A stretch of DNA of 64,000 bases from Acorus gramineus (lineage: Eukaryota > Streptophyta > Magnoliopsida > Acorales > Acoraceae), in the NCBI GenBank assembly GCA_030737835.1, contig JAUJYN010000063.1:139352-203351 (forward strand), written 5' to 3'. The notes beneath the pieces were generated by a model. It saw only the letters and a list, made by a program, of their open reading frames with translations, had not been told where the DNA came from and made no database searches. This document shows positions 1,916 to 43,610 of the stretch, piece after piece. The translations under genes were made by a program, and so were the position numbers. Position 1 is the stretch's first letter; every line of letters begins with the position of its first letter.

Positions 1916-3453
1916 TGAAATCACATATTCCAGCTGCTAATACTCCAGCTCGAATTAATGTTCCAATAGGAAAAACTGCTAATATGCCGGCTAATGAATC
2001 AACAAAAACACGCCTGAAGCGTGGAAGACCTATAGGCTCAAAAGATTCAGCTCCCCGAAGGAGAAAAACAATGAAGAATAATTCTCTAGAAGAGTATGAA
2101 ACACTTGAAAGACCCACAATAATAACTCCTACAGAGGAAGAAGTCCCTGAAGTGACACAAGTCCCTGAAGAGACTGACGTCCCTGAAGTGACGCCCGTGC
2201 ATGAAGAACAAGTACATGGAAATGAAGAAATTTCCATAAATTATGCAAATTCACAAATATTGTGGGATCGAAAGCAAGTGCTTGTTGATGATATATTCTC
2301 ATTTGCAGTAGCTACAGAAATCATTTCAGATAATGATTTAGAACCACGTTCAGTGGATGAATGCAGACGAAAAAATTGTTGGCCACAATGGAAAGCTGCT
2401 ATTCAAACAGAATTGGATTCACTTGCAAAACACCAAGTATTTGGACCAGTAGTCCTAACCCCTGAAGGTGTTAAACCAGTAGGATGTAAATGGGTGTTTG
2501 CGAGAAAACGAAATGAAAGAAACGAGATTGTTAGATACAAAGCTCGTCTTGTGGCACAGGGTTTCCTGCAGAGACCTGGGATAGATTTTGAAGAGACATA
2601 TTCTCCTGTGATGGACACAATCACATTTCGGTATTTAATTAGTCTTGTAGTCTCAGAAGGACTTGACATGCAGCTAATGGATGTGGTTACTGCATATTTA
2701 TATGGAAAATTAGATACCGACATTTATATGAAAGTTCCTGAAGGACTAAAATTGCCTGAAGCAAAACCACGAAACATGTACTCAATCAAGCTAAGACGAT
2801 CCTTGTATGGGTTAAAGCAATCTGGACGAATGTGGTATAACCGTCTTAGTGAGTACTTAATAAAAGAAGGATATGTCAATGATCCAATATGCCCCTGTAT
2901 ATTTATTAAGAAAACGGAACTCGGATTTACCATTATTGCAGTATATGTTGATGATATTAATCTAATTGGGACTCCTGAAGAGCTCGAAAAGGCTTCCGAA
3001 TATCTGAAAAAGGAGTTTGAAATGAAAGATCTTGGAAAAACAAGATATTGTCTCGGCTTGCAAATTGAGCAAAGTTCAAATGGGATACTTGTTCATCAAA
3101 CAACATATGTTGAAAAAATCCTGAAGCGTTTTAATATGGACAAATGTCATCCATTAAGTACTCCAATGGTAGTAAGGTTACTTGACCCAAAGAAGGACCC
3201 TTTTCGTCCAAAAGAAGATACTGAAAATCTTCTTGGTCCTGAAGTACCATATCTTAGTGCAATTGGTGCCTTATTATATTTGGCCCAATGCACTAGACCT
3301 GACATTGCATTTTCAGTTAATTTATTGGCCAGATTTAGCTCTGCACCAACTCGAAGGCATTGGAATGGTGTGAAGCACATTTTTCGTTATCTCGTGGAAC
3401 GTCAGACATGGGTCTATTCTATGCAAAGGATTCCAATAATGGTGCACAACTAA
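1882..3453 (+). pseudogene. Copia pol part 3: linker and reverse transcriptase
   Basis: The N-terminal linker has a basic KRGRPIGSKD motif, repeated acidic VPEVT/VPEET units around residues 84-110, then a copia RT. The RT shows KWVFARKRNE, YKARLVAQGF, the ETYSPV motif, SLYGLKQSGRMWY and catalytic YVDD near residue 355. It would synthesise cDNA from element RNA in virus-like particles. The RT core looks undamaged. A frame change near 3395 (after FRYLV) moves the RNase H into another frame, and the last ~20 codons here are out-of-frame sequence. Confidence 0.88.
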
Positions 3454-6617: not shown

Positions 6618-6981
6618 CAACCAACCAATGTTGGTAAGGTGGGTGGCTGATTTTTGAAGGTGATGGACATGTGAAAAAGATTAGGTCGTATTGGTAATGA
6701 TTAACACAAGACAATATTATATGACACTTTCAATTAAGAAAATGAGACTCATGATAATTGAACATTATTATTTCATCAACTATAAAAAAACTTATTTTCA
6801 TGCATGCGTAATCACATTGAATATTTTAGACAGTGATCATGCATAGTTATTGAACACTTGAATACCCTTTTGGTAATAGCCTTACAACGGATCACATAAA
6901 ATTGTTTGATGGAATGGCTTATGAGTATTGTTTGATGGTGGGTGAATTATTTCTTTTATTTGTTGTCATATTACAGTAAAA

Positions 6982-8523
6982 ATGTTTAGTGGAGATGACG
7001 ATACACTTGAAGAAACTGTTCAGAATTTAGAATCATTGTATGGTGATCATAGCGGTATTTGGATTCCGGACGTAGATGAACAATGTAAACCATTAATGGG
7101 AATGCCTTTCGATTCTCTTGAAGAAGCAGAAAAGTTCTATGTGAATTATGCAAAAATTTCAGGCTTTTCTGTTCGAAAGTCATCAACAAAATATCGTAAT
7201 AATGATGGTGCAAAAGAACTTTATTTGAGAGATTTTGTCTGTTCCAAAGAAGGATTTAAAAAATCTTCGACTATAAAACAAACCCGAGGACATGTGCGAT
7301 TAGGTTGCAAGGCTAAAATCAGTTTAATGAAAGATGGTGAAAGATGGAAGGTGCACAGTCTTGTTGAAGGTCATTCCCATGTTTTGTGTACTCCCAGAAA
7401 AACACACCTCTTGAGATCGCATAGAGAAGTAACAAATGCTCAAAAATCTTTGATTGACACATTTAGAGGAGCCAATGTCAGCACTGCACAGACCATGTCT
7501 ATTTTGGGTATGGATTCAGGAGGGTATGAAGAGGTTGGATGTACGGAGAGAGACATTCGAAACTACATAGGCAAAAATCGAAATGAATTGAAGGATTATG
7601 ATGCAGAATTATTTCCGAACCACTTTAAAGAAAAATCTGAAATGAATCCATCTTGTTATTTTGCGTATAAAGTGGATAAAGATAACAAGTTGACACACTG
7701 TTTTTGGGCCGATGGGGGTGCAAGAAAGGCCTATGGTCATTTTGGAGATGTAGTTGTATTTGACACAACTTATAGCACAAACAAGTATTCTCTAATATGT
7801 GCACCTTTTACTGGAGTGAATCATCATTTTCAATCCATTAATTTTGGTTGTGGCTTGTTAAATGATGAGAAGATTGATTCATTTATGTGGCTTTTTGAAA
7901 AATGGCTGGACGCAATGGGAAATAGTCCTCCAAAAGCATTCATCACTGATCAAGATCCTGCAATTGGGGCTGCAATTGCACATTTGTTCCCTCAGGTGCC
8001 TCACAGATTTTGCATTTGGCACATAATGAAGAAGGTAACAGAGAAAGTCAGCCCAGTTTCTTATAGAAGTGAATTTTTAGAGCCCTTCAAAGCATGCGTA
8101 TATGGCTCAGAAACTTCAGATGAGTTTGAAGAAAAGTGGTGGGGGATAATCAGAAAATTCAAGTTAGAGCAGAATGAATGGTTGGCAACAATGTTTCTTA
8201 TCCGTGAAAAGTGGATTCCATTATATTTTAAAGACATTTTCATGGCAGGAATGAAGAGTAGTCAACGAAGTGAATCTCAAAATTCTGTTTTTGATAAATA
8301 CTTCAATAAAAATAACAGTCTCATTGAGTTCATTCATCTTTTTGAAAGGGCATTAGAGCGTCAAAGGTACAATGAACTAGTGGCTGATCATGGGACATTT
8401 GATAAAAGTCCAGAACTTGCAACAAATTATGCTATTGAATCTCAAATGGCCAAAAGATATACTCAAAAAAATTTTACATGTTCCAAAAGGAAGTTATATC
8501 TTCTATGCAGTGTGGATCGATGA
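6982..8523 (+). CDS. FRS gene, N-terminal reading frame (FAR1 DBD + MULE domain)
   Basis: The frame is open for 513 codons, but the last ~17 (after YTQK) are out-of-frame reading past the A7 run. The true family sequence changes to the other frame at 8465-8471. An acidic N-terminus (residues 4-34) precedes the DNA-binding domain. The start is the first ATG after the predicted acceptor and is followed at once by family-like sequence. The FCIWHIMKKV motif at ~343-352 is typical of FRS proteins. Confidence 0.85.
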   Translation: MFSGDDDTLEETVQNLESLYGDHSGIWIPDVDEQCKPLMGMPFDSLEEAEKFYVNYAKISGFSVRKSSTKYRNNDGAKELYLRDFVCSKEGFKKSSTIKQTRGHVRLGCKAKISLMKDGERWKVHSLVEGHSHVLCTPRKTHLLRSHREVTNAQKSLIDTFRGANVSTAQTMSILGMDSGGYEEVGCTERDIRNYIGKNRNELKDYDAELFPNHFKEKSEMNPSCYFAYKVDKDNKLTHCFWADGGARKAYGHFGDVVVFDTTYSTNKYSLICAPFTGVNHHFQSINFGCGLLNDEKIDSFMWLFEKWLDAMGNSPPKAFITDQDPAIGAAIAHLFPQVPHRFCIWHIMKKVTEKVSPVSYRSEFLEPFKACVYGSETSDEFEEKWWGIIRKFKLEQNEWLATMFLIREKWIPLYFKDIFMAGMKSSQRSESQNSVFDKYFNKNNSLIEFIHLFERALERQRYNELVADHGTFDKSPELATNYAIESQMAKRYTQKNFTCSKRKLYLLCSVDR

Positions 8524-14597: not shown

Positions 14598-17260
14598 TGT
14601 CACGTCCCAGGGCGGCCGTCCCCGAGATGCGGCAATGGTATATAATATCAGCAGTCTATACAGGAGATCAATAACATACTCTAACAACATCAAAATGACA
14701 ACACAGACAATAAGGTGGCTGACATAATATACATACAAATAGCGGAAGCTCAAACGACTGAGTCTGTAATTTAAAAAAAAACATATTACAGACCCGATAC
14801 ATAATCAACTGTCCTGTGAGAGCCAATATATACGACATCCAAATATAATACAAACGTGTGCCCAAGCACGGAATACAATACATACAATCAAAAGGGGATG
14901 CTGATGGCCTCTCACTCGCAGAACGTGACGCTGCTCCGCTACTGCTGATGTGCCTCGGGGAGCTCCTCCTTCAGATCCGACTCAGATATCACTGGAGAAA
15001 AGAATATGCGAGGGGTGAGCCACACGCTCAGTGAATAGCACAACCCATGCATCACAATTCATATTAACCTTAAATGATTTATAGCCCCTAAGTGGGTCGT
15101 TACATCGCCGACCCACCACACCCTCACCCTCACCCTCAAAGGGGTGACATGGGTCTTTTGGGATTGACTAGGCTGCTAATCACCCTTGGTCCACCGATAG
15201 CCTCTCCTCCACTCCGTAGCTTGCCTGGTATACTCCCACGATCAGCACAGTCCGACGCATCGGAGGTACCTACAGATGGGAGCCCTCTGTCAGGACAGCC
15301 TGTCTAACGCTGGGGAGTCCCTACACGGATCCAACGAAGGGAAGAGAAACAGCCTACCCACACGGATACGATCCTCTTGGATCCGTCGGCAACGCTTCCT
15401 AACATTTCTAATGTCATGAATTCTCAAGAATTCCTCGAGGGCGCACAACTAAGATGCGGGGAACCATATATTATAACCACAAGGTTATAATATTCTCTAA
15501 GGCATGCTAATAACCATATGCTCGCATTTGATTTAAATAAATTAAACTAAATGGGAAACATGCGTAGGTCGAGGCTTTCCTAGCATGAAAACATGGTATC
15601 AGGATGCGTAGGCCTCTATACATAATATAAGGGTGCATATCCCTAGCATACAAAGTCTAAGGCGGCATGGATACAACATAATGATCATGCATAGCACAGT
15701 TACATTTATTACAACTTAATACGCATATATGGTGCCCCAGGGGAGGGCAATGCACGTCTACGTGCATCGAACGCCTCCCTACTGGGTTGGATTGTCCCAC
15801 TCACCGAAACTCGGGTCGTTGCGTGACCGTCCGTCAAGATCTGCAAGACAGGGCATTCAACACGGTGAGCAAAATACACAAATACATAAGAAATACACTA
15901 GAAATACCCAACACTCGAACAAGCATGCATACGGGGCCGCACGCATGCGAGCACGCGCGTGCGCACGCGAGTCCGAGTGCCCCGACACTCTCCCGAACCC
16001 ACGGGCAGCCATACGCACAGCCACCCGCACGCGCACGCCCGAAGGCGCACACACGCACGTGCCCCTGCGCCCCAGCCCGCGCGCCCAGACGCGCTCTCGC
16101 ACGCGCGCGCACGTTCGCGCGCACCGCGCGTCCAGCCCCGGGCGCACTCGCGCGCACTGCGCCCCAGCGCAGCACCCCGCGCGCACACCAGCGCGCACCG
16201 CGCGCACTGCGCCCCCCGCGCAGCACACCGCGGGCAACCCCGCGCGCACGCCGCTCGTCTGCGCGTACGCGCGCACGCCCCCAGCACGCCCGACTGCGCG
16301 CGCCAGCCCTGCCTGCGCGCGCAGACTCGCGCGCACGCGCGCGGATGACCCCGCACGCGCGCCCGAGCCCTTCCCACCCCCTTCCTCAGCCCTCCCACAC
16401 CCCTAACACACATGCATACCATGCATACTCCATTTCACACCCTAAACAAGCATCTAATCCTAGCTAGGGGAGGAGGAAAGCTTACCCAAGGGAGGAAGAA
16501 CCAAGGGGGGGACTCGGGTGCCCTTCGCGCACCGAATCGCCACCACCAAGACCACCACCACCAAGCCACTCTCAGCCCCTACTATGGCTGAAAACAGGGG
16601 AGAAATGGGACCATGAGGGGAGGTAGAGAAAGGGGGAAACCAAAAATAAAACCATGGGAAGGTAGATCAAGTCCTCACCTTCCTTTTTCCCTTCAATGGC
16701 TTTTCTTTTCTTCCACTCCTACTAGATCAAAAGGAGGAATTAAAGAGAGGGGATGTGAGGGTTTGTGAGTGAGAGAGGTAGAGAGAGATGGGGATGAAGA
16801 AGAAGGGGTGCACGCCTAAGTGAACTCACCCACACACACACACTCACACACTCACACTTAGGGCATTTTAGGTTTTCTTTGTGAACTTTGACCATGGTCA
16901 ACCCATCCACACAAACAAACAAAAGACTTTGACCAAGTCAAGGGTCAAACTTGACTTGGTCAAAGTCATATTTGACTTGGTCAAGTCTCCCCTTGACTTT
17001 CCGTTTGGTCAAAACCCGGATACGATTCGGAACTGTGAAATTCTGAAACGTTACCGGAATTCGATGAAATTTTCCAGAGTGGCTTGAAATGGCACCAGGA
17101 CACATAATGTGCAGTTAGATTTTCAATCGGAGTTCTCAAACTCATGATGATGGCTAAAAGTCCAAATTTTTAGCGGTTCCGATCGAAAAAAGAAAAAGTT
17201 GAAAAACTGCCAGAATGCTCCAATGGTGACCAGAAGGCTAAAAGTGACACATATATAACA
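14598..17260 (-). repeat. A1 5' LTR (2663 bp)
   Basis: The ends are TGTCACGTCC at 14598 and CATATATAACA at 17260, i.e. TGTTATATATGTG...GTGACA on the minus strand. The region includes the GCGC tract (about 15940-16360), the mini-exon-like segment at 15805-15840, the donor-like element near 16484, and a U3 with 11 W-boxes (16888-17012). Long open frames across the GCGC tract on both strands are compositional artefacts. Confidence 0.88.
16888..17012 (-). promoter_or_regulatory. W-box cluster in the A1 LTR U3
   Basis: Eleven TTGAC/GTCAA cores occur in 125 bp, all fitting TTGAC[C/T], the WRKY-factor W-box. They include back-to-back pairs such as TTGACCATGGTCAA. The position is U3, upstream of the presumed transcription start of the minus-strand element. 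Binding is inferred, not shown. Confidence 0.6.
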
Positions 17261-19326
17261 TGTATAGAATATGGCATGCCTTAGGTAGTATTGTAATACT
17301 ACTCCCACCATATTAATTGGAATATTGAACATGATTAAGTCTGGGTTAATAACGGGCACCTGCCTAATATTCCCTTGCGATAAGACTCGAGGGCGTGGTG
17401 TAGTTGTTGCGCCCATGCTAATGGGGCAAAGCTATGACCAGCTTTATGAGATGATGATCTCTCTCGCCCTCTCCCTCTGAACGAACTGAGTAAGTAGATG
17501 CGTTTTCCTACTCGACTCAAGTTCGTTTGGAATATTGGCATGCACCTGTTAGTGCGCGAGATCGCGCTTGACCCTTTCTTTTAAGTTGGTGATATCCAAC
17601 GCATGTTTAAGTTAGACCATGTATGCATGTTGTATGATTTATTATGATGTAAATCCATGTTAGGGAGTGTCCCTATAACTATTAGATGATTGTGCATATG
17701 GTTCATGCACATAGCTAGATATAAAATTCTCCTGGATATATTTATATGCGCATGTTAAAAAAAATTGATGGGCCTATCTGGGATAGGCGTGGGTATGACC
17801 CGCTGTCGGGTTGTACCTTATTAGTTAGAGCGCTAGCAATGTAATCGTCCCGTGCATCCGAGCGATGCACTCGTTTGGAATTCAGGAGAATTCATTATCT
17901 TATCGGATTGTTAAGCCGGTAGTTGGGGCGTGACACCCCCCCTGTGTCCGAGCGACGCAACGGTGTGGGAGTACAGTAGTATTCGATATCTCGATAAGTG
18001 ATTATCGAGAGTAGTTGTTTTTCCATTGGGTTCGCTTTGCGAACATGGAATGTTTACTCCCAATGTCGTCCATGTTGAAGAGGGCCGGGTTGTAGCTGTC
18101 CTGACAGAGGGCTCCCATCCGTAGGTACCACCGATGCATTCGGAAGCGTACTGATCGTGGGAGTGTACCAGGTAGAGGCTACCCGGGAGAGGGTTAACGA
18201 ATGATATTGCGAGCATGGAAATCGTTCTCCCCTTCGTTGGATCCGATGTAGGAACTTCCCGGCGTTGAAAAAGCTGTCCTGACAGAGGGCTCCCATCCGT
18301 AGGTACCATCGAGGCGTTCGAAAGCGTACTGATAGTGGGAGTATACCAGGTAGTGACTACCCGGGGAAAGGGCTACCGGTGGACCAAGGGTGTAGAGCAG
18401 TCTAAGTCTCTTCCAAAAGTCCCAAGAGTCTCCCTCCGGGAGTGAGGGTGAGGATGAGGTGAAGACACGTCGCCTCGTGACCCATTCGTTGTTCGTCCGT
18501 TCCCATAGTTGTTGGGTCCGGTCTCGTATCGATGTTTAAAGACATCGTTGGGCAGTTATCTCGATGTAGATGATCCAGTAGTGTTGCGTAGACCAGTAAT
18601 CTCGGATCTCCTCGACCAACGGTATGGTCTCTCCCTAAAAGTCCCAAGAGTCTCCCTCTGGGAGTGAGGGTGAGGTTGTGATCCAGGAGTGTTGTATGGA
18701 CCAGTAATCCCGGGTCTCCTCGACCAACGGTATGGTCTCTCCCTAAAAGTCCCAAGAGTCTCCCTCCGAGAGTGAGGGTGAGGGTGAGGTTGGTCGCGCC
18801 GCCGCGTGACCCTGTTATCCATGGGTTTCCACCCATGTTTACCTTGAAAGGAAATTATTTATGTATTGAACTGTTGTATGGTGATTGGTTTCCAGCCACT
18901 CACTGAGCTTGTAGCTCACCCCTCGCATACTGTTTCTTTTCAGGGGCAGTGTTGGGCGTGGAGTTGGGGCTTCCCTGTGGCGTGGTCTTGTGGGCGTGGA
19001 GCGTTCTTCCGGCGGGTGGTGAGTGCGAGATTGTCAGCAGTCCTAGAGTCATTTTATGTATTGTAAATCGTGCATGTGGCACATGTTGTATTTTATTTGG
19101 TCTAGACTTGGCTCTCACAGGACAGTGATTGTGTATTCGAGTCTGTAATAATATTTTTGGTTTATAGACATTGTTTATATATTATGCTTCTGCTTTTCAG
19201 TCAGTTATCATTATCCTTGCTTTGCCACCTTGTGTGTTATTGTTGGAGTTTTTATTGACCTCAGGTATTGATAGCTGATATTTCATTATTGCCACGTCTC
19301 GGGGACGGCCGCCGTGGGGCGTGACA
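17261..19326 (+). repeat. Family B LTR, 3' two-thirds, cut by the A1 insertion
   Basis: It is collinear with 31957-34167. It carries the GTTAATAACGGGCACCTGCC stretch, two copies of a ~180-bp unit (18092-18175 and 18271-18351 cores), two copies of a ~125-bp unit with CAACGGTATGGTCTCTCC (18600-18790), and the end CGTGGGGCGTGACA at 19326. The 5' part should lie beyond A1 but has been lost. Confidence 0.85.
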
Positions 19327-19385
19327 CTCGGGATGGCTCGTTAAGAGCCATCGGGCATGTTTCTGGACAACTCCCAGAGGCGCCA
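19327..19385. other. 59-bp unique spacer with a perfect hairpin
   Basis: It lies between the end of the B LTR and the start of the A2 LTR. GATGGCTC-GTTAA-GAGCCATC forms a perfect 8-bp stem. It has no match in the other LTRs by eye, so it is probably pre-insertion flanking DNA. Confidence 0.6.
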
Positions 19386-22300
19386 TGTTATATATGTGTC
19401 ACTTTTTGGCCTGCTGGTAACCATTGGAGCATTTTGGCAGTTTTTGAGTTTTTTTCATTTTTCGATCGGAACCGCAAAATTTTGGACTGTTAGCTATCGT
19501 CCTGAGCTAGAGGACTCCGATTGAAAATCTAACTGCATATTATGTGTCCTGGTACCATTCTAAGCCACTCACAAAAATTTCATCGAATTCCGGTAACGTT
19601 CCAGAAATTTCACAGTTCTGGGGCGTATCCGGGTTTTGACCGATCGAGAAGTCATTGGGAGAGTTGACTCGGTCAAAGTGGGCCCATGACTTGGTCAACC
19701 CTTTTTATCTTTTTGTGTGGTTGGGTTGACCCAAGTCAAACCCACTTAAAACCCCCCCTAACCTCTCTTAGCCCTAATTAAGTTTGGTTAACCCTAATTA
19801 AGTGGGGTTTGACTTATTTAAAGAAAGCTAAAAGTGTTGCCCTACACTATTCATCATCTTCTCAAATCACATTTTCTCTCTCCTCCTCTCTCTTTTTCAA
19901 GCTTTTGAGCCCCTTGGAGTGCCCAAACCTTAAAACCTAAAACATAGAAAGGGTAGATCCGGTCCCGATCTACACCCCGGTGGTTTCAAATCCGGATTCC
20001 GGCGTGTCTTGCCCTTTCTTCCGCCCTCTCTTCTCCTCAGATCTGAGCCATTTCGGAGGTGGGAAGGGGTCTTGGTGGTGGAGACCCTTGGAGAGGCGTT
20101 TCGGTGCGCGGAGAGCAACCGAACATCCCTTCCTTCCCTTGGTAAGCTCTTTTTCCTCTTCTTTTTGACTTAGATGCTTGTTAGGAGGGTGGTTTTGAGG
20201 TTGGGTGGTGGTCGGCGGCTGTGGGTGGCTGTCGGAGGTGGTTGGGGGCGGTCGGAGGCCATTGGTGGCCGGTGGTTGGTGGTGGAGGTGCTCGGACAGG
20301 GTGGGTTGCTGTCTCGGGCAGGTCGGTAGCACAGGCAGCAAGCAGCGCAGCAGGCTGGGCGCGCGCGCGCGTGCGCGCGGACGTGCGCGGGGGCGTGCGC
20401 CCGGGTGGAGCTGGAGAGCGTGCTGGGCGCGCATGCCGGGCGCTGGGCGCGGGTATGCTGGGCGCTGGTCGTGGGGCGATGGGGCGCTGCGTGTAGGGCG
20501 CCGTGCGGGGTGCGCGCGGAGCGCTGCGCAGGGGTGCAGGCGCGCTGTGCGCGCGCGGTGAGTCGGTGGAGTGCTGGGCGAGCAGGGGTGCGCGCGGGTG
20601 GCGCGCGGGGCGAGGCGCGGGGTGCGAGGCGTGCGGGGTGCGCGCGGCAGCTGCGATGGGGCGCAGTGGGCGCGTGGTGCACCCGGGTGGCTCGGCAGCA
20701 TGTCCAGGCGTGCGGGCAGGGGCCCGGCGGTGCGCCTGGGTGCACGGGCTGAGGCGCGGCGGCGCATCCGGGGGCGGGTGGCCGTGCGGGTGGTTGCCGG
20801 GGGTGCGGGAGTGAGTCGGGGTGCTCGGGCTAGCGTGCGTACGGGCCGTATGTACGTTTGCCCGAGTGTTGGGTATTTATTTGTGTATTTTTGAGTATTT
20901 TGTAGTATTTGTGTATTTTACTCACCGGGTTGATTACCCTGTCTTGCAGATCCTGACGGACGGTCGCGCGACGACCCGGTTACCGGTGAGTGGGACAACC
21001 CAACCCAGTTGGGAGGCGCTACATGCACTTGGGCGTGTACCGTCCTCCCCTGGGGCACATAGTTAATATTAACTGTTATATTGTAATCCATGCAAGCATG
21101 ACTAATGTGTAGAATGCATGCCACCCTAGACTTGTATGTTAGGGACTTGCACCCTTAGGATATGTGCATGAGCCGTGCATCCTGTCACCTCGTTATCATG
21201 CTAGGAAAGCCCTGACCTATGCATGCGTCCTATTAGTTTGATTTATTTAATTAAATGCAAGCTTGTGATATTGTTAGCATGCCTTGGGGAATATAAGGGG
21301 GCCTTGCGAGGTAAACATTGAGACCCGGGCTAGGGTACTCCGTGTTCCTTGTTTGGTTGGCGGGATGTCCTATATCGGGACCTCAGGTTGCCCTCCCAAG
21401 GTCTCTTTTCCTCATTATTATCTTATGTATTCCCCGCATCTTGGTTATGCGCGCTGGAGGAATTCTGAAGAATTCAAGACATTAGAGTTGTAGAGATGTG
21501 TTGTCAGCGGATCCGAGTGGATCATATGCGATGGATAGGCTGTTCTGTTCCCTTCGTTGGATCCGTGTAGAGACTACCTCAGCGTTAGAAAGGTCGTCCC
21601 GTGCAGGGGCTCCCATCAGTAGGCACCTCCTGATTTGGTAGACGGACTGTGCTGAATGTGGGAGTGGCCAAACGACCTACGGAGTGGGGAGAGACTATCG
21701 GTGGACCAAGGGTGACCAACAGCCTAGTCAGTCCCAAGAGCCTATGTCACCTATTGAGGGGTGAGGGTGAGGGTGTGGTGGGCCGGCGATGTGGCGACCC
21801 ACTGGATTGTGTAAGGATGATTATCAGCCTATTAAGTCCCAACATCCTTTGTCACCTATTGAGGGGTGAGGGTGAGGGTGAGGGTATGGTGGTTCGGCGA
21901 TGTAACGAACCCCCGGATTTGTGTTGTTTATGCCATTTTGAGGCTAGTGACTTGATTAAATGTGGTTAATATAAACCCTGATGCATGGGTTGTGCTATTC
22001 ACTGAGCGTGTGGCTCACCCCTCGCATAATTATTTTCTCCAGTGATTACCGAGGCGGACTTGAAGGAGGAGCTTCCCGAGCGACTACACCAGTAGCGGAG
22101 TAGCGCCACGTCCCTCGAGTTTTGAGGCCATCAGCATCCTTCCTTTTGATTGTATGTATATATTTCTGTGCTTGGGCACCTAGTATGGATTGTATTTGGA
22201 TGTATTGTGGATATATTGGCTCTCACAGGACATATGATTATGTATCGAGTCTGTAAAGTGTTGTTGATTTACAGATTCAGTCTTTTTAGCTTCCGCATTT

Positions 22301-22445
22301 CTGTGTATACATCATGTCAGCCTCTTTGTTGTCTGTGTTGTCTTTTTAGCTGTTGTTTATGGTATATTATTGATCTCCTGTATTGACTGCTGATATCATG
22401 TATACCCTTGCCGCGTCCCGGGGACGGCCGCCCTGGGGCGTGACA
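19386..22445 (+). repeat. A2 5' LTR (3060 bp)
   Basis: TGTTATATATGTG...GGGCGTGACA. U3 has W-boxes (19637-19815). A TATA-like TTATTTAAAG lies at 19814, a donor-like TTGGTAAGC at 20140-20148, a GCGC tract at 20356-20770, the mini-exon-like segment at 20950-20985, a shared ~105-bp module at 21297-21404, (GGGTGA)n G-tracts near 21760 and 21865, and an acceptor-like CTCCAG near 22040. Confidence 0.92.
19814..19823 (+). promoter_or_regulatory. A2 5' LTR TATA-like element
   Basis: TTATTTAAAG lies upstream of a pyrimidine-rich TTCATCATCTTCTC stretch and is conserved at 27806-27815 in the 3' LTR. It is the likely core promoter, inferred from position and AT-richness. Confidence 0.5.
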
Positions 22446-22450
22446 AAAGT

Positions 22451-22462
22451 TGGTATCAGAGC
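22451..22462 (+). other. A2 primer-binding site (initiator-Met tRNA)
   Basis: TGGTATCAGAGC lies five bases after the 5' LTR end. It is complementary to the 3' end of initiator-Met tRNA, the standard plant retrotransposon primer. Confidence 0.92.
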
Positions 22463-22565
22463 CTGGTCCTGTCAGAGCCAATTGTCTTCTTTTTCGTAGA
22501 GATGAGTCCTAGGATTTCTATATGAGTATTCTGATCCTAGTGTCTGGTTTTCTTAGGTTGCTGAT

Positions 22566-23738
22566 ATGCCTCCTCGCAGAGGACGGCGCGGACGTGGTCC
22601 CTCTCGACCTTTGGAGGTCTCCGGACCTACCAGAGGCGAGGATGCTATTGGTGAGTCCTCAGCCGTGAGGCCAGGATCAGCGCAGGAGCCTCCTGCCTGG
22701 GAGCGCGCGTTTGCGCGGATAGCTGATTTGGTGGAGACGCAGACCAGGGCATTGGAGGCCCAGACCAGAGTGTTGGCAGATCAGGCACGGGAGATTCAGG
22801 AGCTGCGGGCGGCCCGCGAGGCAGTTCCGCAGGTTCCCTTGGTGGCAGATCCACCTGTGGTACCCGATGTACCCCCAGTCCCCGTGGTGGTCCCGGCGGT
22901 CAGAGTTCAGGATCCCCAGGAGAGGGAGGTGGGGCTAGAGGCTGCAGCGAGGGTGCAGCAGAGTGGCCTCTCAGCCTTTCTGAAGCTCCACCCTCCGGAG
23001 TTCCAGGGTCAGACGGAGGACCCCCTTGCTCCAGAGAGATGGTTGATGGAGGTGGATACCATCTTCTCGACCATGCTTTGCACCGACCGCCAGCGAGTCT
23101 CCCTGGCCACTTTTATGCTGAAGGGTAGCGCCGCCGACTGGTGGGCTACTAGATCAGTGGACATCCCGGAGGGATTGGAGCAGCTTACATGGGCGGGATT
23201 CTGGAGGTATTTCTTGGAGGAGTACTTCCCCTTCTCGACGCGACAGATAGTGATGCAGGAGTTTGAGCAGCTGACTCAGGGCACTATGTCTGTCGCTGAC
23301 TACTCCACGCGCTTCACGAGGCTGTCCAGATTCGCTCCAGCTTTGGTGATGGACGAGGAGACGAGGTGCCGTCGATTCGAGCTCGGTCTCAGCAGTGCCA
23401 TTCGGGTGCACGTCACCTCCCAGGCTTTCTCGAGGTACTCCGACTTAGTGTCTCGAGCGAAGACAGTTGAGCGAGACCTCGGGATCCTCGTGAGGGCTTC
23501 GACCTCTTCGGCAGACCAGAGGCCACCCAGGAGCCAGGACCAGGGACAAAGAAGAGGCCCCGCTTTGAGCAGTCAGCGGCTGCCTCTCCTCCAGCAGATG
23601 CGGTGCCAGCGCGAGGTCCAGCACCCATCGCAGCAGTGCCAGTCCAGGCGAGGCGACCAGAGACGAGGCGCTGTTATCACTGTCAGCGCGTCGGGCATAT
23701 TCTGTATAATTGCCCCGACGCTGGCCGACCCAGAGTGA
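22566..23738 (+). CDS. A2 gag (capsid), frameshifted before the zinc knuckle
   Basis: MPPRRGRRGRG start with an Arg-rich N-terminus, a heptad-like ETQTRALEAQTRVLADQ, a Pro/Val-rich linker, then capsid motifs LSAFLKLHPPEF, ADWWATRSVDIPEG and FEQLTQGTMSVADYSTRF. It would form virus-like particles. The last ~60 codons (from about 23550) are out of frame; the real zinc knuckle is in the next frame from about 23603. The ATG lies 104 bp after the PBS. Confidence 0.85.
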   Translation: MPPRRGRRGRGPSRPLEVSGPTRGEDAIGESSAVRPGSAQEPPAWERAFARIADLVETQTRALEAQTRVLADQAREIQELRAAREAVPQVPLVADPPVVPDVPPVPVVVPAVRVQDPQEREVGLEAAARVQQSGLSAFLKLHPPEFQGQTEDPLAPERWLMEVDTIFSTMLCTDRQRVSLATFMLKGSAADWWATRSVDIPEGLEQLTWAGFWRYFLEEYFPFSTRQIVMQEFEQLTQGTMSVADYSTRFTRLSRFAPALVMDEETRCRRFELGLSSAIRVHVTSQAFSRYSDLVSRAKTVERDLGILVRASTSSADQRPPRSQDQGQRRGPALSSQRLPLLQQMRCQREVQHPSQQCQSRRGDQRRGAVITVSASGIFCIIAPTLADPE

Positions 23739-24060
23739 TGCCTCCGCAGCAGCAGCAGCAGTTGCAGCAGCAGCCGTTTCAGCAGCCGCAGCAGCCTCAG
23801 CGCGCCGTTTCAGCAGCGCCAGCCGCAGCAGCAGCCTCAGCGTCAGCAGCAGCAGCCACAGGGTGGCCGTGCTGATCAGAGGAGGCAGCCAGCGCAGCCG
23901 GCGAGGCGTGCCCCTGCTCCTCAGCCTCAGTTCGTCAGGGCCGAGTGGCAGCGCTTTCGGCAGAGGAGGCACAGGCATCAGGCAGCGTGGTCAGAGGTAC
24001 TGTTCAGATCTCCCAGCTTCCTGCTTATGTATTGTTTGATTCCGGAGCCACCACTCGTTC
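23603..24060 (+). pseudogene. A2 gag zinc knuckle, Gln-rich linker, protease active site
   Basis: CYHCQRVGHILYNC is the gag knuckle. A CAG/CAA-rich stretch follows (23745-23870) with another shift, then AALSAEEAQ and the aspartic protease motif LFDSGAT near 24036-24056. A frame change right after the active site separates it from the rest of the protease. Confidence 0.8.
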
Positions 24061-24569
24061 GTGTCTCCCGCTTTCGCGAGACGGACGGGCGTGGCGTCCG
24101 CTCCTTGGATGCTATCTTGGAGATATCATTGCCCGTGGGAGACCATATTCTCCTCAGTTCTGTGTACCGAGGGTGTACGGTAGAGGTCGCGGAGCATGAG
24201 TTTCCAGTGGAGCTGGTGGAGCTCGCGATGACGGACTTTGATGCCATCCTGGGAATGGATTGGCTTGCAGCTAGTCATGCCAGCATCGACTGCTTTGCCA
24301 AGTTAGTGTCGTTCCACCTTCCGGGTCGGAGGTCCTTCCAGGTCGTAGGCGATCGTGACGTAGCTCCTTTGGGGTTCGTGTCGTCCATGCAGGTGTGGAG
24401 ACTCCTTCAGGGAGGATGCGAGGGCTTTCTAGCTTATATTGCTCAGGAGGATGCACCGCTGCAGGCAGATATCAGTCAGACTCCGGTCGTGGCAGAGTAT
24501 CCCGAGGTTTTCCCGATGATCTTCCGGGATTACCGCCGGATCGCGCGATCGAGTTTGAGATCAATCTGA
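24027..24569 (+). pseudogene. A2 protease C-terminal part and protease-RT linker
   Basis: It encodes [13 protein letters not shown], the second conserved block [16 protein letters not shown] and the linker [15 protein letters not shown]. It is frameshifted near 24515, where the sequence FPDD enters the pol frame, and the final ~17 codons are noise. Confidence 0.8.
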
Positions 24570-27190
24570 TTCCGGGGACCGAGCCGATTTCGAGAGCTCC
24601 GTACCGGATGGCCCCTGCAGAGCTGAGGGTGCTCAAGGAGCAGTTGGAGGAGTTGCTGGAGAAGGGCTTCGCACGTCCGAGTGTTTCTCCGTGGGGAGCC
24701 CCTGTCCTGTTCGTCCGGAAGAAGGACGGTTCGCTGCGGCTGTGTATTGATTACAGGCAGCTGAATAAACGGACAGTGAAGAACAAGTACCCGTTGCCGC
24801 GGATCGACGATCTGTTTGACCAGCTCCAGGGAGCGCGTGTCTTTTCCAAGATCGATCTCCGCTCGGGGTACTACCAGCTGAAGATCCGGGAGTCAGACAT
24901 CTCGAAGACGGCCTTTCGCACCCGGTATGGGCACTACGAGTTCAGAGTACTGCCATTCGGGTTGACGAACGCGCCGGCGGCCTTCATGGATCTGATGAAC
25001 CGGGTATTTCGGCCCTTCCTCGACTCCTTTGTGGTAGTATTCATCGATGACATATTGGTGTACTCGAGGAGTCTTGAGGAGCACGCTCACCATCTTCGCA
25101 CTGTCTTGGAGACTTTGGCCAGACATCAGTTGTTCGCCAAGTTCAGCAAGTGCGAGTTCTGGTTGGAGCGTATGGCCTTTCTGGGCCATGTGATTTCCGG
25201 TGAGGGCATAGCTGTGGACCCGGAGAAGACGCTCGCCGTGTCGAATTGGCGTCGACCGTCGAACCCCACAGAGATTCGGAGCTTCTTGGGCTTGGCGGGT
25301 TATTACAGGAGGTTTGTCGAGGGTTTCTCGAAGATAGCCGTTCCTCTTACCCGCCTCACTCGGAAGGATGTTCGGTTCGAGTGGTCCCCTGCTTGCGAGG
25401 AGAGCTTCCAGGAGCTGAAGCGAAGGGGCACCTCAGCGCCAGTTCTTACCCTTCCGTCTGGGAGTGGTGGGTTCGCAGTTTACACAGATGCATCGCAGTT
25501 GGGTGTGGGTTGCGTCCTGATGCAGCACGGTAAGGTTGTGGCTTACGCGTCTCGTCAGTTGAAGCCCCATGAGCAGAATTACCCCACCCATGACCTTGAG
25601 TTGGCAGCGATCATCTTTGCGCTGAAGATGTGGAGGCATTACCTCTATGGAGAGGAGTTCGAGCTCTTTACTGATCATAAGAGCTTGACATATCTGCAGT
25701 CCCAGCCGGAGCTCAACATGCGTCAGAGACGTTGGGTTGAGTTCCTGACGGACTACGATTGTGACATCGCTTACCATCCGGGTAAGGCGAATGTCGTTGC
25801 AGATGCGCTCAGTAGGCAGCCCTTGGGCATGGCCGCCCACATGGCTGTCCGTCGTTGGAGGCTTCTGGAGGAGGCCGCTTGCTGGATCAGTGTTCGAGAG
25901 ACTCCTGCGGGTGGCTTTTTGGCCAGGCTGGTGGTGCAGCCAGTCCTTCTCGAGATCCGCACGGCTCAGGCTCAGGATCCGCATTTTATAGTCCTCTCTG
26001 AAGGCGTCGCCCGGGGCGAGCGTCCGGACTACCAGATTCGCGCGGACGGGATCCTGCGATTCAGAGGCCGAGTGTGCATTCCCGACGACGCAGAGCTGAA
26101 GCGGAAGATTCTGGACGAGGCCCATCGCTCGAGGTACACAGTGCATCCTGGTGGCACGAAGATGTACAGGGGCCTTCGTCGCGGCTACTGGTGGCGCGGG
26201 ATGAAGACGGATATTGCCCGTTTCGTTGCCCGATGCCTAGTATGCCAGCAGGTGAAGTCGGAGCATCAGCGCCCTGCGGGGAAGCTGCAGTCCATTGAGA
26301 TCCCTCAGTGGAAGTGGGAGCAGATCACCATGGACTTCGTCTCGGGTTTGCCGAGGTCACGTTCGGGTCGCGATGCCATCTGGGTGATCGTCGACCGGCT
26401 GACGAAGTCTGCTCATTTCCTCCCCATCCGACTCACCGATTCTCTGGACACCCTGGCGCAGTTATTTGTCTCCGAGATTGTCCGTCTCCATGGCACTCCA
26501 GTCAGCATCATTTCTGATCGAGACGCGCGTTTTACTTCGAGGTTCTGGCGTAGCCTCCAGCACGCCCTTGGTACGAACCTCCATTTCAGTACAGCGTTTC
26601 ATCCGCAGACGGACGGCCAGTCGGAGAGGACGATCCAGACTCTTGAGGACATGCTGCGGGCCTGTGTTCTCGATTTTGGGGGCAGTTGGGAGAGGCACCT
26701 TCCGTTGGTGGAGTTTGCCTACAACAACAGCTACCACTCGAGCATCCGGATGGCTCCTTACGAGGCACTTTATGGCCGCAGCTGCAGGTCCCCCCTGTGT
26801 TGGGACGAGGTCGGAGAGCGCCAGTTAGAGGGACCAGAGATCGTTCACCAGACCTCAGAGATGGTGAAGACGATTCGCGAGCGTATCCGAGTCGCTCAGA
26901 GTCGTCAGAAGTGCTACGCCGACCGTCGTCGCCGTGAGCTCACCTTCGAGGTTGGTGACCATGTGTTCTTGAAGGTGTCCCCGATGAAGGGCATCTTCCG
27001 ATTCGGTGTGCGGGGCAAGCTGAGTCCGCGTTTCATTGGGCCGTTCCTCATCCTCGAGCGAGTTGGAGAGGTGGCCTATCGCATAGCTCTGCCCCCACAG
27101 TTGGCTCAGGCCCATGACGTCTTCCATGTCTCGCAGCTGAGGCGATATGTCCACGATCCTGCTCACATCATTCCGTTCGAGCCGGATTGA
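24395..27190 (+). CDS. A2 pol: reverse transcriptase, RNase H, integrase
   Basis: The first ~40 codons are an out-of-frame lead; homology starts at FPDDLPGL (~24515). [35 protein letters not shown]. RNase H: VYTDAS, DLELAAI, FTDHKSL, ADALSR. Integrase: HHCC zinc finger (H-x3-H-like HRSRYTVH...CLVCQQ), core with [16 protein letters not shown] and [11 protein letters not shown] (D,D,E), then a GPF-type motif [13 protein letters not shown]. This is the longest open pol frame in the window, and all catalytic residues that can be checked are present. The stop at 27188 comes just before the chromodomain. Confidence 0.92.
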
Positions 27191-27335
27191 GATCCTGGAC
27201 CGCCGCGAGAAGAGGCTCCGCACCAAGACCGTCCAGCTGGTCAAGGTGCGATGGCAGCACCGTTCCGGTGCCGAGGCCACTTGGGAGCTCGAGGACGCCA
27301 TGCGTGACGCGTATCCGCATCTTTTCCCTTCTTAG
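27188..27335 (+). pseudogene. A2 integrase chromodomain tail, in a shifted frame
   Basis: [38 protein letters not shown] resembles the compact chromodomain of Tekay/Del chromoviruses (VKVRW...ATWE). Such domains direct insertion to heterochromatin. It follows the pol stop at 27188-27190 in another frame and ends at 27335; one or more small deletions may have removed the join. Confidence 0.75.
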
Positions 27336-27370: not shown

Positions 27371-27383
27371 AAGGGGGGGAGAA
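27371..27383 (+). other. A2 polypurine tract
   Basis: AAGGGGGGGAGAA abuts the 3' LTR start TGTTATATATG. The same tract precedes the 3' LTRs of B, B', A3 and (reverse complement) A4. Confidence 0.9.
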
Positions 27384-28368
27384 TGTTATATATGTGTCAC
27401 TTTTTGGCCTGCTGGTAACCATTGGAGCATTTTGGCAGTTTTTGAGTTTTTTTTTTTTTCGATCGGAACCGCAAAATTTTGGACTGTTAGCTATCGTCCT
27501 GAGCTAGAGGACTCCGATTGAAAATCTAACTGCATATTATGTGTCCTGGTGCCATTCTAAGCCACTCACGAAAATTTCATCGAATTCCGGTAACGTTTCA
27601 GAAATTTCACAGTTCCGGGGCGTATCCGGGTTTTGACCGAGCGAGAAGTCATTGGGAGAGTTGACTCGGTCAAAGTGGGCCCATGACTTGGTCAACCCTT
27701 TTTGTTTTTTGTGTGGTTGGGTTGACCCAAGTCAAACCCACTTAAAACCCCTAACCTCTCTTAGCCCTAATTAAGTTTGGTTAACCCTAATTAAGTGGGT
27801 TTGACTTATTTAAAGGAGCTAAAAGGTTGCCCACTATTCATCATCTTCTCAACTCATTTTCTCTCTCCCCCTCTCTCTTTTTCAAGCTTTTGAGCCCCTT
27901 GGAGTGCCCAAACCTTAAAACCCAAAACATAGAAAGGGTAGATCCGGTCCCGATCTACACCCCGGTGTTTTCAAATCCGAATTTCAGCGTGTCTAGCCCT
28001 TTCTTCCGCCCTCTCTTCTCCTCAGATCTGAGCCATTTCGGAGGTGGGAAGAGGTCTTGGTGGTGGAGACCCTTGGAGAGGCGTTTCGGTGCGCGGAGAG
28101 CAACCGAACATCCCTTCCTTCCCATGGTAAGCTCTTTTTCCTCTTTTTTTTGGCTTAGATGCTTGTTAGGAGGGTGGTTTTGAGGTTGGGTGGTGGTCGG
28201 CGGCTGTGGGTGGCTGTTGGTGGTGGTTGGGGGCGGTCGGAGGCCATTGGTGGCCGGTGGTTGGTGGTGGAGGTGCTCGGACAGGGTGGGTTGCTGTCTC
28301 GGGCAGGTCGGCAGCACAGGCAGCAGCACAGGCAGCAAGCAGCGCAGCAGGCTGGGCGCGCGCGCGCG
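27384..28368 (+). repeat. A2 3' LTR, truncated (985 bp)
   Basis: Collinear with the first third of the 5' LTR, including the TATA-like element at 27806 and donor-like ATGGTAAGC near 28124. It stops within the GCGCGC run at about 28368, joining a minus-strand B LTR at GAGAGAGATCAT. Confidence 0.88.
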
Positions 28369-30085
28369 GAGAGAGATCATCTCATGAAGTTGGTCATAGC
28401 TTTGCCCCATTAGCATGGGTGCAACAACTACACCACGCCCTCGAGTCTCGTTGGAAGGGAATATTAGGTAGGTGCCCTTTATTAACCCAGACTTAATCAT
28501 GCTGGATATTTCAATTAATATGGTGGGAGTAGTATTACAATTCTACCTAAGGCATGCCATATTCTATACATCCATACACATTATAGAAATACATGCCCAT
28601 ACTAGAGGAGCGCATGCAACACAGTCATTCATACATGGATACAATACATGCAATATAAGCCTAGCATGCAAGGTATCTAACATATTATAGCTTAAGCATG
28701 GTCATACTACTTATCTACACAAGTAGTATAGCTAGGGTGCCCCATTGATGCGCAACGCACGACTACGCGCGTCGAGCGCATCTCGAGGGGGGATTGGATC
28801 AAACCACTCACCGCAACCCGGGACCTCGCGCATCCCTTCCAACGAGATCTGCAAGGTAAGAGCATCAAATTTGGTGAGTAACATCATAATATAACACTTA
28901 GATATTACTAGAAATACCAAAGACTTAGACATGCACGCATACGGGCTCGCACGCATGCGAGCACGCGTGTACGCATGCATGCCAGAGTGCCCCAGCACCT
29001 ACCCGAGCCCCTGGGCATCCCCGTGCATGCCCCAGCATGCGCACTCGCACCCTGTCGCATGCCTAGGCACGCCCAGACAACCGGCCCCACGCGCGCGCAT
29101 GCTCGCGCGCGCCCTCGCGCACTCGCGCGCACGACCCGCGCGCACCGCGCACGCTGCCAGCATCCGCGCGAACCTGCGCGCTCGCTCCGTGCGCACCCGC
29201 GTTCCCGCGCGCATGCGCACTCGCCCGCCTTCGCCTGCCATTGCCCCTCTACGCGCGCGTCTGCTCACATACCCGCACGGACAGACCCGCGCGCGCGCCC
29301 AGCACTCCCCAACCCTTTTTAACCCCTCCCCCACACTTCTCACTCACCCTAAACCAACTACCTAGCATGCATGACTTCCCAACAACCCCTAAGCCATGAA
29401 AAACCAAAGAAAAGAAGGGGAAGAGCTCACCTAGGGAGGGGGAATGAAAGGGGGAGATTCGGGGGCCCTCGATCCCGTGACCACCTCTACCACCACCACC
29501 ACCTCCACACCCTCCTCAGCCTTCTTTGGCTTGCTCTTCCTCCTTCACCTTCTCCTTCCTTTGCTTCTTCCTCCTCCTCTACACACAAAGAGAGGAAAAA
29601 GAGACCAAGAGAGGGAGAGAAAGAGAGATCCACGAGTAGGGAGAGAGGGGGGAGAGAGAGAGGGCAGAATGGTCATTTCCATGCCTAAATAGTGTTTTGG
29701 GGTGACCATAAGGGGGTGGTGAGGTTAGGGTTAGGCTCACCCTCACTCAACCACTTATTTTTGCTTTATTGGGAAGCGTGCGGAGAAGCACCACACACTC
29801 GAAAATATCTCACCCACCGAAACCCAGTAACGACCAAACCCGGATGCGATTCAGAACTGTATATTTTTCAAAACGTTACCGGAATTCGATGAAATTTTTA
29901 TGGGTAGTACTAAACGGTACCAGGACCCATAATATGCAGTTAGATTTTCAATCAGAGTACTCTAACTCCCGCAGGTGATAAAAGCCAAAATTTTAGCGAC
30001 TCCGATCGAAAAAAGAAAAGGCCCTGAATGACCCAGATGTGATCAAGGCTTAACCGAAATGGCTCCAAATGACACAGGCATAACA
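28369..30085 (-). repeat. Family B LTR, 5' part, minus orientation
   Basis: It is the reverse complement of the first part of a B LTR: TGTTATGCCTGTGTCATTTGG starts at 30085 and runs down to 28369. It contains the GCGC tract (about 29080-29300), a mini-exon-like segment at 28812-28848, and the TTTATTAACCC...GCCATATTC region seen at 31957-32050. It is cut on the left by the junction with A2. Confidence 0.85.
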
Positions 30086-30368: not shown

Positions 30369-33300
30369 TGTTATGCCTGTGTCATTTGGAGCCATTTCGG
30401 TTAAGCCTTGGTCACATCTGGGTCATTCAGGGCCTTTTTCTTTTTCGACCAGAGTTGCTAAAATTTTGGCTTTTAGCTACCTGCGGGAGTTGGAGTACTC
30501 TGATTGGAAATCTAACTGGATAGTATGGGTCCTGGTACTGTTTTGTACTACCCATAAAAATTTCATCGAATTCTGGTAACATTTTGAAAAATATGCAGTT
30601 CCGAACCGTATCCGGTTTTGAGAGTTCCTGGTTGGTCGAATAGTGTGAGATATTTTGGGGATGTGGTGACCCTTGGTAACCTTACCCCCACCTTGCTTGG
30701 GGATGAAGAAACCATTGGTTATTTGATATGTGAGTGGGTGAGCCTAACCCTAACCTCACCCCCCCCTTAAGGTCACCCCTAGGCACTATTTGGGCATGAA
30801 AATAACTTTTTTGCCCTCTCTCTCTCTCCCTCTCTCCCATTTCGTGGAACACCTTCTCTCCCTCTCTTGGTCTCTTTTTTTCTCCTCTTTGTGTGTGAAG
30901 AAGGAGGAAGAAGCAATTGAAGGAAAAGATGAAGAAGAAGCACAAGAAAGAGTGAGAAAGGGTGAGTATGTGTTGTTGTTGTTGTTGTTGTTGTTGTTTC
31001 TCTTCTCTCTATCCCCTTCTCATGCCCCTTTGCACCCCTGTTTTCTGCCATGAAGGGCTTGAGGAGATTCTGATGAGGTGGTGGTAGTGGTGGTGGTGGT
31101 TGAGGTGGTCGTGGGTGTGTCGAGAACCCCGCATCTCCCCATTTCCCTCCCCCTGTTTTGGTAAGGCAGCACTCTGTATTTTAAAGATCTCAGTGCATCT
31201 AGTATTTAGAGACACATTTTTAGGATTATGTCTGCATATGATATGATCATATATGTGTCTAGTTGTTATATATGAAATTTGGGGTCATTATGATATCTGT
31301 GGTGTAAGTTAGAACCAGTTTTGCATGGCCTGTCCAGATTCGCGTAGGAATTGACCTGCTTCTGGAAATAATTTGTTTCGGGCTTGTAGAGGCAAAATTA
31401 GGTTCTAATGTCTTCATGGATTATGATCCCAGCATGTCATAGGATGTGCATGATTTATTTCATAATTTTTGAAAGTGTATTGGGTGCTGTGGAGACCAAT
31501 TAGTAGGGCTGGTTGCACCAGGTTTGGCAATTTTGCTTGGTTGAGTGTCAAGGAGTTATTTGCATGTGTCTTGGGTGATAATATGGAAGTATCAGGGGTT
31601 AGGGCCTTCATGAAGTAGGCTTATATGTGTGATAGGAGGTTCCATATTTTAATTGTGGATTATTGGTTGTGTTTTGCAGATCTCATAGACCGGACGCGCG
31701 ATGATCCGGGTATCGGTGAGTGGTTTGATCCAATCCCCCCCTCGAGATGCGCTCGACGCGCGTAGTCATGCGTCGCGCATCGATGGGGCATCCTAGCTAT
31801 ACTACTTGTGTAGATAAGTAGTATGGCCATGCTTAAACTAAATATGCTAGATATCTTGCATGCTAGGCTTATATTGCATGTATTGTATCCATGTATGAAT
31901 GATTGTGTTGCATGCGCCCCTCTAGTATGGGCATGTATTTCTGTAGTGTATATGGATGTATAGAATATGGCATGCCTTAGGTAGTATTGTAATACTACTC
32001 CCACCATATTAATTGGAATATCCAGCATGATTAAGTCTGGGTTAATAACGGGCACCTGCCTAATATTCCCTTGCGATAAGACTCGAGGGCGTGGTGTAGT
32101 TGTTGCGCCCATGCTAATGGGGCAAAGCTATGACCAACTTCATGAGATGATGATCTCTCTCGCCCTCTCCCTCTGCACGAACTGAGTAAGTAGATGCGAT
32201 TTCCTACTCAACTCAGGTTCGTTTGGAATATTGGCATGCACCTGTTAGTGCGCGAGATCGCGCTTGACCCTTTCTTTTAAGTTGGTGATATCCAACGCAT
32301 GCTTAAGTTATGCCTTGTGTGCTTATATGATTAATGGCCACGTATGCATGTTTAAGTGGGCCATACCATGTATGCATGTTGTATGATTTGTTGTTTATGA
32401 TGTAAACCCATGTTAGGGGTCACCCTTATGGTCAATTATTAGATGATTGTGCATATGGTTCATGCACATAGCTAGATATAATTCTCCTGGATATATTTAT
32501 ATGCGCATGTTAAAAACTGATAGGCCTATCTGAAATAGGCATGGGTATGACCCGCTGTCGGGTTGTACCTTATTAGTTAGAGCGCTAGCGATGTAATCGC
32601 CCCGTACATCCGAGCGATGCACTCGTTTGGAATTAAGGAGAATTCATTATCTTATCGGTTTTGTTAAGCCGGTAGTTGGGGCATTAAGCTAGGCCTACCC
32701 GTGCTAGGTGTGTATATGAACCGCCTGTTGAGTTATGTGCCTTGGGATTATTTCTGTGTGAGAGCAGAGGCAACCCCCTTGTGTCCGAGCGACGCAACCG
32801 TGTGGGAGTACATTAGTGTTCGCTATCATCGATATGTGATTATCGAGAGTAGTTGTTTTTCCATTGGGTTCGCTTTGCGAACATGGAGTGTTTCCTCCCA
32901 ATGTCGTCCGTGTTGAAGCGGCCCAGGTTGTAGCTATCCTAACAGAGGGCCCCCACCTGTAGGTACTATCGATGCATGCGGCAAGATGTATTGATCGTGG
33001 GGGTATACCAGGTAGAGGCTACCCGGGAGAGGGCTAACGAATGATATTGTGAGCATGGAATCGTTCTCCCCTTCGTTGGATCCGATGTAGGAACTTCCCG
33101 GCGTTGGAAAAGATGTCCTGACAGAGGGCTCCCATCCGTAGGTACCACCGAGGCGTTCGGAAGCGTACTGATCGTGGGAGTATACCAGGTAGTGACTACC
33201 CGGGGAAAGGACTACCGGTGGACCAAGGGTGTAGAGGAGTCTAAACTCTCCAAAAGTCCTATGTCACCTATAAAGGGTGAGGGTGAGGATGAGGTGAAGA

Positions 33301-43560: not shown

Positions 43561-43610
43561 GGGTTTCCTTAAATTTCGAGGACTAAATTTCCTAAGGGGG
43601 GAAGAATGTT

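Follow-up and report, generated by a model that had tools for sequence, protein, structure and literature searches.

Splice signals around a probable mini-exon within the long terminal repeats of Tekay-like retrotransposons of Acorus gramineus

Splicing is known from several plant long terminal repeat (LTR) retrotransposons, namely BARE1, Ogre, CRR and Bagy2 (PMC3735527, PMC6317226), EVADE (PMC12786077) and elements of sunflower (PMC7730604), with plant LTR retrotransposons being generally without introns and Ogre and EVADE standing as notable exceptions (PMC12786077). In BARE1 of barley, a Ty1/copia element, a GT-AG intron of 104 nucleotides (nt) near the end of gag gives a Gag-only frame, and BARE2, a relative that does not splice, is without the splice signals (PMC3735527). 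As far as the extracts of these papers show, splicing in the known plant cases concerns coding regions or subgenomic RNAs and not introns lying wholly within an LTR; Tekay members are absent from the expressed set in the extract on sunflower (PMC7730604). Here we analyse 64,000 nt of Acorus gramineus DNA (contig JAUJYN010000063.1, positions 139,352 to 203,351, assembly GCA_030737835.1; hereafter the window), in which the long LTRs of chromodomain Ty3/gypsy retrotransposons carry a segment of 36-39 nt between splice-like signals. Judged from the DNA, this segment is probably (at about 0.75) spliced at these very sites as a spliceosomal mini-exon, one of several exons of a non-coding 5' leader within the LTR.

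A preliminary description of this DNA had reported the mini-exon-like segment in all nine LTR copies that cover it, and the nine coordinates proved exact, as did the flanks TTGCAG and GTGAGTGG and the range of lengths (36 nt in six copies, 37 nt in one and 39 nt in two). With copies named by position, the segment lies on the forward strand in A (20950-20985), B (47688-47723), G (38684-38722; 39 nt) and H (31680-31715), and on the reverse strand in C (15805-15840), D (50617-50652), E (61482-61517), F (56320-56358; 39 nt) and J (28812-28848; 37 nt). TTGCAG followed by GTGAGTGG at a spacing of 25-50 nt occurs nine times in the 64 kb, each time in these LTRs. Similarity arranges the copies in about five groups (A/B, C, D/E, F/G and H/J) and, because they are thus related, the nine copies are not nine independent observations.

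Conservation was measured in an alignment of ten LTR copies, using columns occupied by at least eight of them. At the mini-exon, all nine columns of TTGCAGATC on the acceptor side and all nine of GGTGAGTGG on the donor side are invariant, against invariant fractions of 0.38 in the mini-exon interior, 0.27 in the upstream stretch and 0.31 in the downstream stretch: within the window, the AG and GT bases are conserved above the neighbouring LTR sequence, which is what the preliminary description had expected of true splice sites. Invariant runs of at least nine columns in the leader comprise only TTGCAGATC, GGTGAGTGG and a block of 16 nt, GCTCACCCCTCGCATA, upstream of the exon 3 acceptor (22013-22028(+) in copy A), which includes a CTCAC branch-like motif and does not vary among A-I, the nine copies extending into it. 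The 16 invariant nt of this block and its eight homologues exceed what a branch site needs. Another idea takes the segment for a hairpin in RNA or DNA (GGTC..GACC), acting for instance in packaging or protein binding, and its splice-like flanks for incidental features. RNAalifold does propose a stem of 4 bp in which both sides of one pair are changed in three of nine sequences, but the covarying change is confined to F, G and J, the pair is broken in H, and the longest stretches without variation fall at the exon ends and not in the stem; across the window, no match to an Rfam family attains the gathering score. Having just four pairs, the hairpin was rejected, and we regard it as very unlikely.

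The strength of the signals was assessed by ranking the GT sites of each leader (98-300 per copy) by predicted pairing with U1. The mini-exon donor ranked 1, 1, 1, 2, 2, 2, 2, 2 and 3 across A-H and J, i.e. within the top three in 9/9 copies, while exon 1 donors ranked 4-26 and the donors of a candidate intron 0, described below, 1-15. Of the conserved GT columns, 31 in all, the two strongest, clearly ahead of the next (-5.4), are the donors of the mini-exon and of exon 1 (-10.8 and -8.4); in a ranking of the 20 conserved AG columns, the acceptor of exon 3 comes first and that of the mini-exon third. By simple scores, a CTCAC branch-like motif lies 23-26 nt upstream of the mini-exon in 8/9 copies (absent in H) and the pyrimidine tract there is mixed; CTCAC also lies within GCTCACCCCTCGCATA before the exon 3 AG in 9/9 copies reaching the block.

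Around the mini-exon, the leader has the order C/T-rich exon 1, intron 1, mini-exon (exon 2), intron 2, exon 3 acceptor, remainder of the LTR, primer binding site (PBS) and an acceptor before gag. The donors that the preliminary description had seen at the end of the C/T-rich leader (20142, 28127, 31161, 38060 and 46550) are present, and so are its late acceptors at about 22040, 33780 and 49040. In copy A, exon 1 spans 19847-20141(+), its putative start being placed by TATA-like and C/T-rich sequence, as is the predicted transcription start throughout, and its end by the donor TTG/GTAAGC; across copies this donor reads GGTAAGC or GGTGAGC, with GGTAATC in E and GGTAAGG in H. Intron 1 (20142-20949(+) in A, with 70% GC; 519-1138 nt across copies) is CG-rich in A and its homologues, eight copies in all. 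Intron 2 opens with the mini-exon donor GTGAGTGG, measures 813-2069 nt in the eight copies A-H and holds 30 AUGs in A (20986-22042(+)). Exon 3 (22043-22151(+) in A) starts at a conserved acceptor, e.g. TTTTCTCCAG, and has an uncertain end at a weak GTATGT donor; the last 379-404 nt of the LTR follow the acceptor (D is truncated). A candidate intron 0 within exon 1, absent from the preliminary description, is suggested in C-H and missing in J; in H it lies at 30962-31047(+) and runs from GGTGAGTATG to TTTTCTG, with TG in place of the AG that is intact in K, a fragment comprising exon 1 and the start of intron 1 (62841-63157(-)). In copy J (29430-29640(-)), which is without intron 0, the break falls exactly at the AG acceptor and, by eye against D, about 8 nt off on the donor side: J may be the product of a partly spliced RNA or of a chance deletion, and the pattern is only suggestive.

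Copy H provides a further line of evidence. Its intron 1 (31161-31679(+); 519 nt, 38% GC) is AT-rich and unrelated to intron 1 of other copies, and a second copy of its first 134 nt, 87% identical, is found in K (62841-62974(-)). At the donor junction, local alignments of H stop between -6 and +5 nt in five of eight comparisons, with no alignment across the junction in the other three (H against A, B and C), and in 8/8 comparisons homology restarts 10 or 6 nt upstream of exon 2. In control pairs without H, similarity extends 176-299 nt into intron 1 at the exon 2 end (8/8 pairs), and six of eight alignments cross the donor junction. Since intron 2 of J and H is 93% identical over 442 aligned positions, the difference in H is specific to intron 1. 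The remaining eight copies with a mini-exon have a GC-rich intron 1, and the AT-rich one shared by H and K amounts to a whole-intron swap between subfamilies. Without a splicing constraint it is difficult to see why the exchange should be bounded by both predicted splice sites, although rapid divergence together with recombination in the exons is a possible alternative for H.

These observations also bear on the suggestion that the signals are splice-like for other reasons, serving as promoter or poly(A) motifs or as U1 sites that block early polyadenylation in the 5' LTR. Such U1 binding suppresses early polyadenylation at the donors of human immunodeficiency virus type 1 (HIV-1) and foamy virus, as the extract of one report states (PMC12789967); both donors here pair well with U1, and the excess of GCTCACCCCTCGCATA over a branch site would suit some such additional function. 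Signals of this kind leave unexplained, however, both the breaks of homology in H near the two predicted junctions and the invariant acceptor side TTGCAGATC, and as a full account we consider them unlikely; U1-mediated suppression of polyadenylation could nevertheless act jointly with splicing.

If the predicted exons form a leader, their content of start codons is of interest. In copies A-E the leader has 45, 48, 47, 51 and 54 AUGs (245 in total), with none in the modelled exons (356-444 nt in each copy), and shifting the exon mask gave a value this low in 0.7-1.9% of shifts. With intron 0 retained, exon 1 would contain two AUGs in C, one in D and one in E, and, in the seven copies counted as far as the LTR end, an exon 3 extending to that end would add 5-9 AUGs. 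The last ~90 nt of exon 1 share 63-74% identity in the pairs A-B, A-C, C-D and C-E, and 95% in D-E. The AUG-free exons, seen despite this divergence of exon 1, are supporting but not decisive evidence for a spliced leader, and evidence restricted to the A-E subfamilies.

The lack of AUGs also enters the question of whether the mini-exon and exon 3 could encode a small spliced LTR peptide (frame N/AT CTT GAC GGA.., ending at a TAG in exon 3). In A-D a single frame does run without a stop from where exon 1 ends, across exon 2, as far as this TAG, and the first 39 nt of exon 3 vary at 6/0/5 sites by codon position (A, C, D and E; a count that left out B, with its 6-nt insertion, and F-I). Against this, there is no AUG in the modelled exons of A-E at all, exon 2 varies at 5/5/6 sites by codon position (A, B, C, D and H; E is identical to D, and F, G and J were omitted for length), a stop lies in exon 2 of F and G and an early one in exon 3 of E, and the 37-nt exon of J shifts the frame. 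A 98-amino-acid query from the copy A frame returned six candidates in the protein search, none at E<=1. The coding peptide was rejected on account of the missing AUG, the codon-position pattern of exon 2 and the lack of a database protein, and seems to us highly improbable. The purine-rich GAAGGAGGAG of exon 3 would also suit a splicing enhancer.

A further acceptor, unnoticed in the preliminary description, lies beyond the LTR: TTTCTTAG (22549-22556(+) in copy A) is located downstream of the PBS and 9 nt upstream of the gag AUG, and TCTTAG/GTTGCTGA is found 9 nt before the gag start in 5/5 copies examined (A, C, E, G and H; in C the gag ATG reads TTG). Its use would let splicing remove the PBS. 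From these sequence features we infer that transcription starts from the LTR, that introns 1 and 2 are spliced out, that the gag acceptor is used and which exon joins gag, and likewise that spliced RNA is translated and unspliced RNA serves as template. In such a scheme, transcription would begin within the LTR just upstream of the C/T-rich stretch, and the LTR-internal introns, all of the U2-type GT-AG kind (intron 1 ahead of the mini-exon, intron 2 behind it and an optional intron 0), would be removed, with the mini-exon as a constitutive or alternative exon in the 5' leader RNA of the Tekay-like elements. Splicing would shrink a leader of ~2.2-3.4 kb with 45-101 AUGs to a few hundred nt, bringing gag within reach of ribosome scanning. 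Use of the last acceptor would remove the PBS as well, in which case only unspliced RNA could be the template for reverse transcription and the introns would stay in the LTR; reverse transcription of a spliced RNA that retains the PBS would be possible, at the cost of the LTR introns. That every covering copy still has its introns is what one would expect if the PBS is removed, and also if splicing is inefficient. Only tentatively, and with somewhat less than even confidence, do we propose the full partition of RNA, in which an AUG-free, multi-exon, PBS-less leader would serve the gag-pol mRNA and unspliced RNA alone would enter reverse transcription.

The interpretation given in the preliminary description is supported in part. 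A non-coding spliced leader exon is the reading with the best support: junction-limited conservation, donor strength, the precise intron 1 swap in H and the lack of a coding pattern in the mini-exon speak for it, and a number of observations weigh against it. Intron 1 has 62-72% GC and 19-24% T in eight copies, unlike usual plant introns. The exons overall are no more conserved than the introns, and therefore selection, if any, acts on the signals. No strong donor common to the copies was found for exon 3; hence either the mini-exon joins the gag acceptor directly or exon 3 uses weak, copy-specific donors. In an antisense control, two of seven conserved GT columns were strong (-9.9 and -9.3), these being reverse complements of CTCACC motifs; the best conserved acceptor scored 0.52 antisense versus 0.79 sense. 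The window yielded no LTR that lacks intron 1 or intron 2, and a BLAST search for intronless retrocopies with joined exon ends (A, C, D, G and H) yielded 599 high-scoring segment pairs, four of which span the joint by at least 8 nt and none of which is convincing: two matches to D rest on ~15 nt on one side, the one to C crosses by 8 nt and the one to H has an E value of 0.81. The depletion of AUGs is likewise limited. Modelled exons hold 6 of 76 AUGs in F, 5 of 84 in G and 5 of 101 in H, i.e. no depletion, with 28%, 9% and 9% of mask shifts as low, respectively. Dinucleotide shuffles gave moderate P values for A-E with exon 3 included (0.04, 0.016, 0.014, 0.07 and 0.098), higher ones with exon 3 left out (0.07, 0.045, 0.15, 0.28 and 0.34) and no depletion in F-H. 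Three partial copies fall outside these counts: in the truncated 3' LTR of A a single AUG stands at the extreme end of exon 1, exon 1 of J is free of AUGs and its mini-exon contains one, and exon 1 of K contains three. Intron 0 and the end of exon 3 were, moreover, picked after inspection.

The elements that carry these LTRs are chromodomain Ty3/gypsy retrotransposons of Acorus, Tekay-like in character; the clade name Tekay, taken from the preliminary description, agrees with the length of the LTRs and with the chromodomain. Full LTRs measure ~2.7-3.7 kb. Element A has its 5' LTR at 19387-22446(+) and a truncated 3' LTR from ~27383 (27383-28368), which stops upstream of the mini-exon, while copy I (17260-19327) is a 5'-truncated LTR that begins downstream of it. 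A search behind the LTR ends found the exact PBS TGGTATCAGAGC just behind the end of five copies (22451-22462(+) in A). Between its LTRs, element A (22557-27190) shows the Ty3/gypsy order Retrotrans_gag, RVP_2, RVT_1, RT_RNaseH and Integrase_H2C2, with rve detected below its curated cut-off; the open reading frame (ORF) for reverse transcriptase (RT), RNaseH and integrase lies at 24359-27190(+), and a chromodomain-like stretch within 27141-27332. This chromodomain match after the integrase (PF00385; E 2.8e-05, 24.4 bits) falls below the curated cut-off of 25.1, as does a second at 52059-52418(-) (E 5.4e-04, 20.3 bits), making the support moderate. Among 18 proteins listed, the gag of A shows 94% identity over 84% of its length to one predicted Acorus gramineus protein and 99% over 37% to a second. 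The gag of the B-type element (43596-45140) continues into a tail, VRGIILCSQL..., resembling that of the predicted Acorus gramineus proteins P0006 and P0007, and its stretch 44646-45140 is similar to LTR intron 2 of other copies; the B-type element is possibly a gag-only, non-autonomous family. Nearby lie a Ty1/copia RT ORF and a FAR1/MULE-type transposase ORF (1843-3453 and 6946-8523, respectively).

A retrotransposon RNA has to act as both mRNA and genome. Leader splicing, if it takes place here, would be a simple sorting device that strips AUGs from the leader and can take the PBS with it; the great length of these LTRs would be easier to account for, the predictions are testable by ordinary RNA-seq, and spliced LTR exons could supply neighbouring host genes with ready-made 5' ends. 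Introns inside a plant LTR are not described in the titles and abstract openings of the open-access literature among the matches listed, the word Tekay is absent from the main text of two Acorus genome papers, and exact patterns for external relatives of the LTR had no matches in non-plant viral and genome contig collections. Should the proposal be true and without earlier report, no LTR before it would have been recognised as an array of introns and exons working for the element's own gag, and introns wholly inside the LTR are probably a new form of retrotransposon splicing.

In setting Gag RNA apart from other RNA by GT-AG splicing, BARE1 resembles what is proposed here (PMC3735527), but the predicted Acorus introns lie in the LTR leader and leave the coding frame untouched. 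Ogre and CRR are, like the Acorus elements, plant Ty3/gypsy elements, and have spliced RNA as proposed here; CRR splicing removes rt, and neither intron is described as lying within the LTR in the extracts of these papers (PMC6317226, PMC3735527). For the short GAG isoform of EVADE in Arabidopsis, splicing gives rise to a well translated subgenomic RNA, which is a likeness, yet according to the extract it removes the protease region (PMC12786077), unlike splicing of the predicted Acorus leader introns. An Ogre-type intron is located between protease and RT, whereas the introns considered here lie in the LTR. Foamy viruses and human T-cell leukaemia virus 1 (HTLV-1) have their major splice donor within the LTR and upstream of the PBS, such that their spliced RNA is without the PBS, a likeness to our proposal. 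In these retroviruses, however, one donor serves downstream genes, whereas in Acorus an acceptor-exon-donor unit would lie wholly in the LTR, with gag itself as the target.
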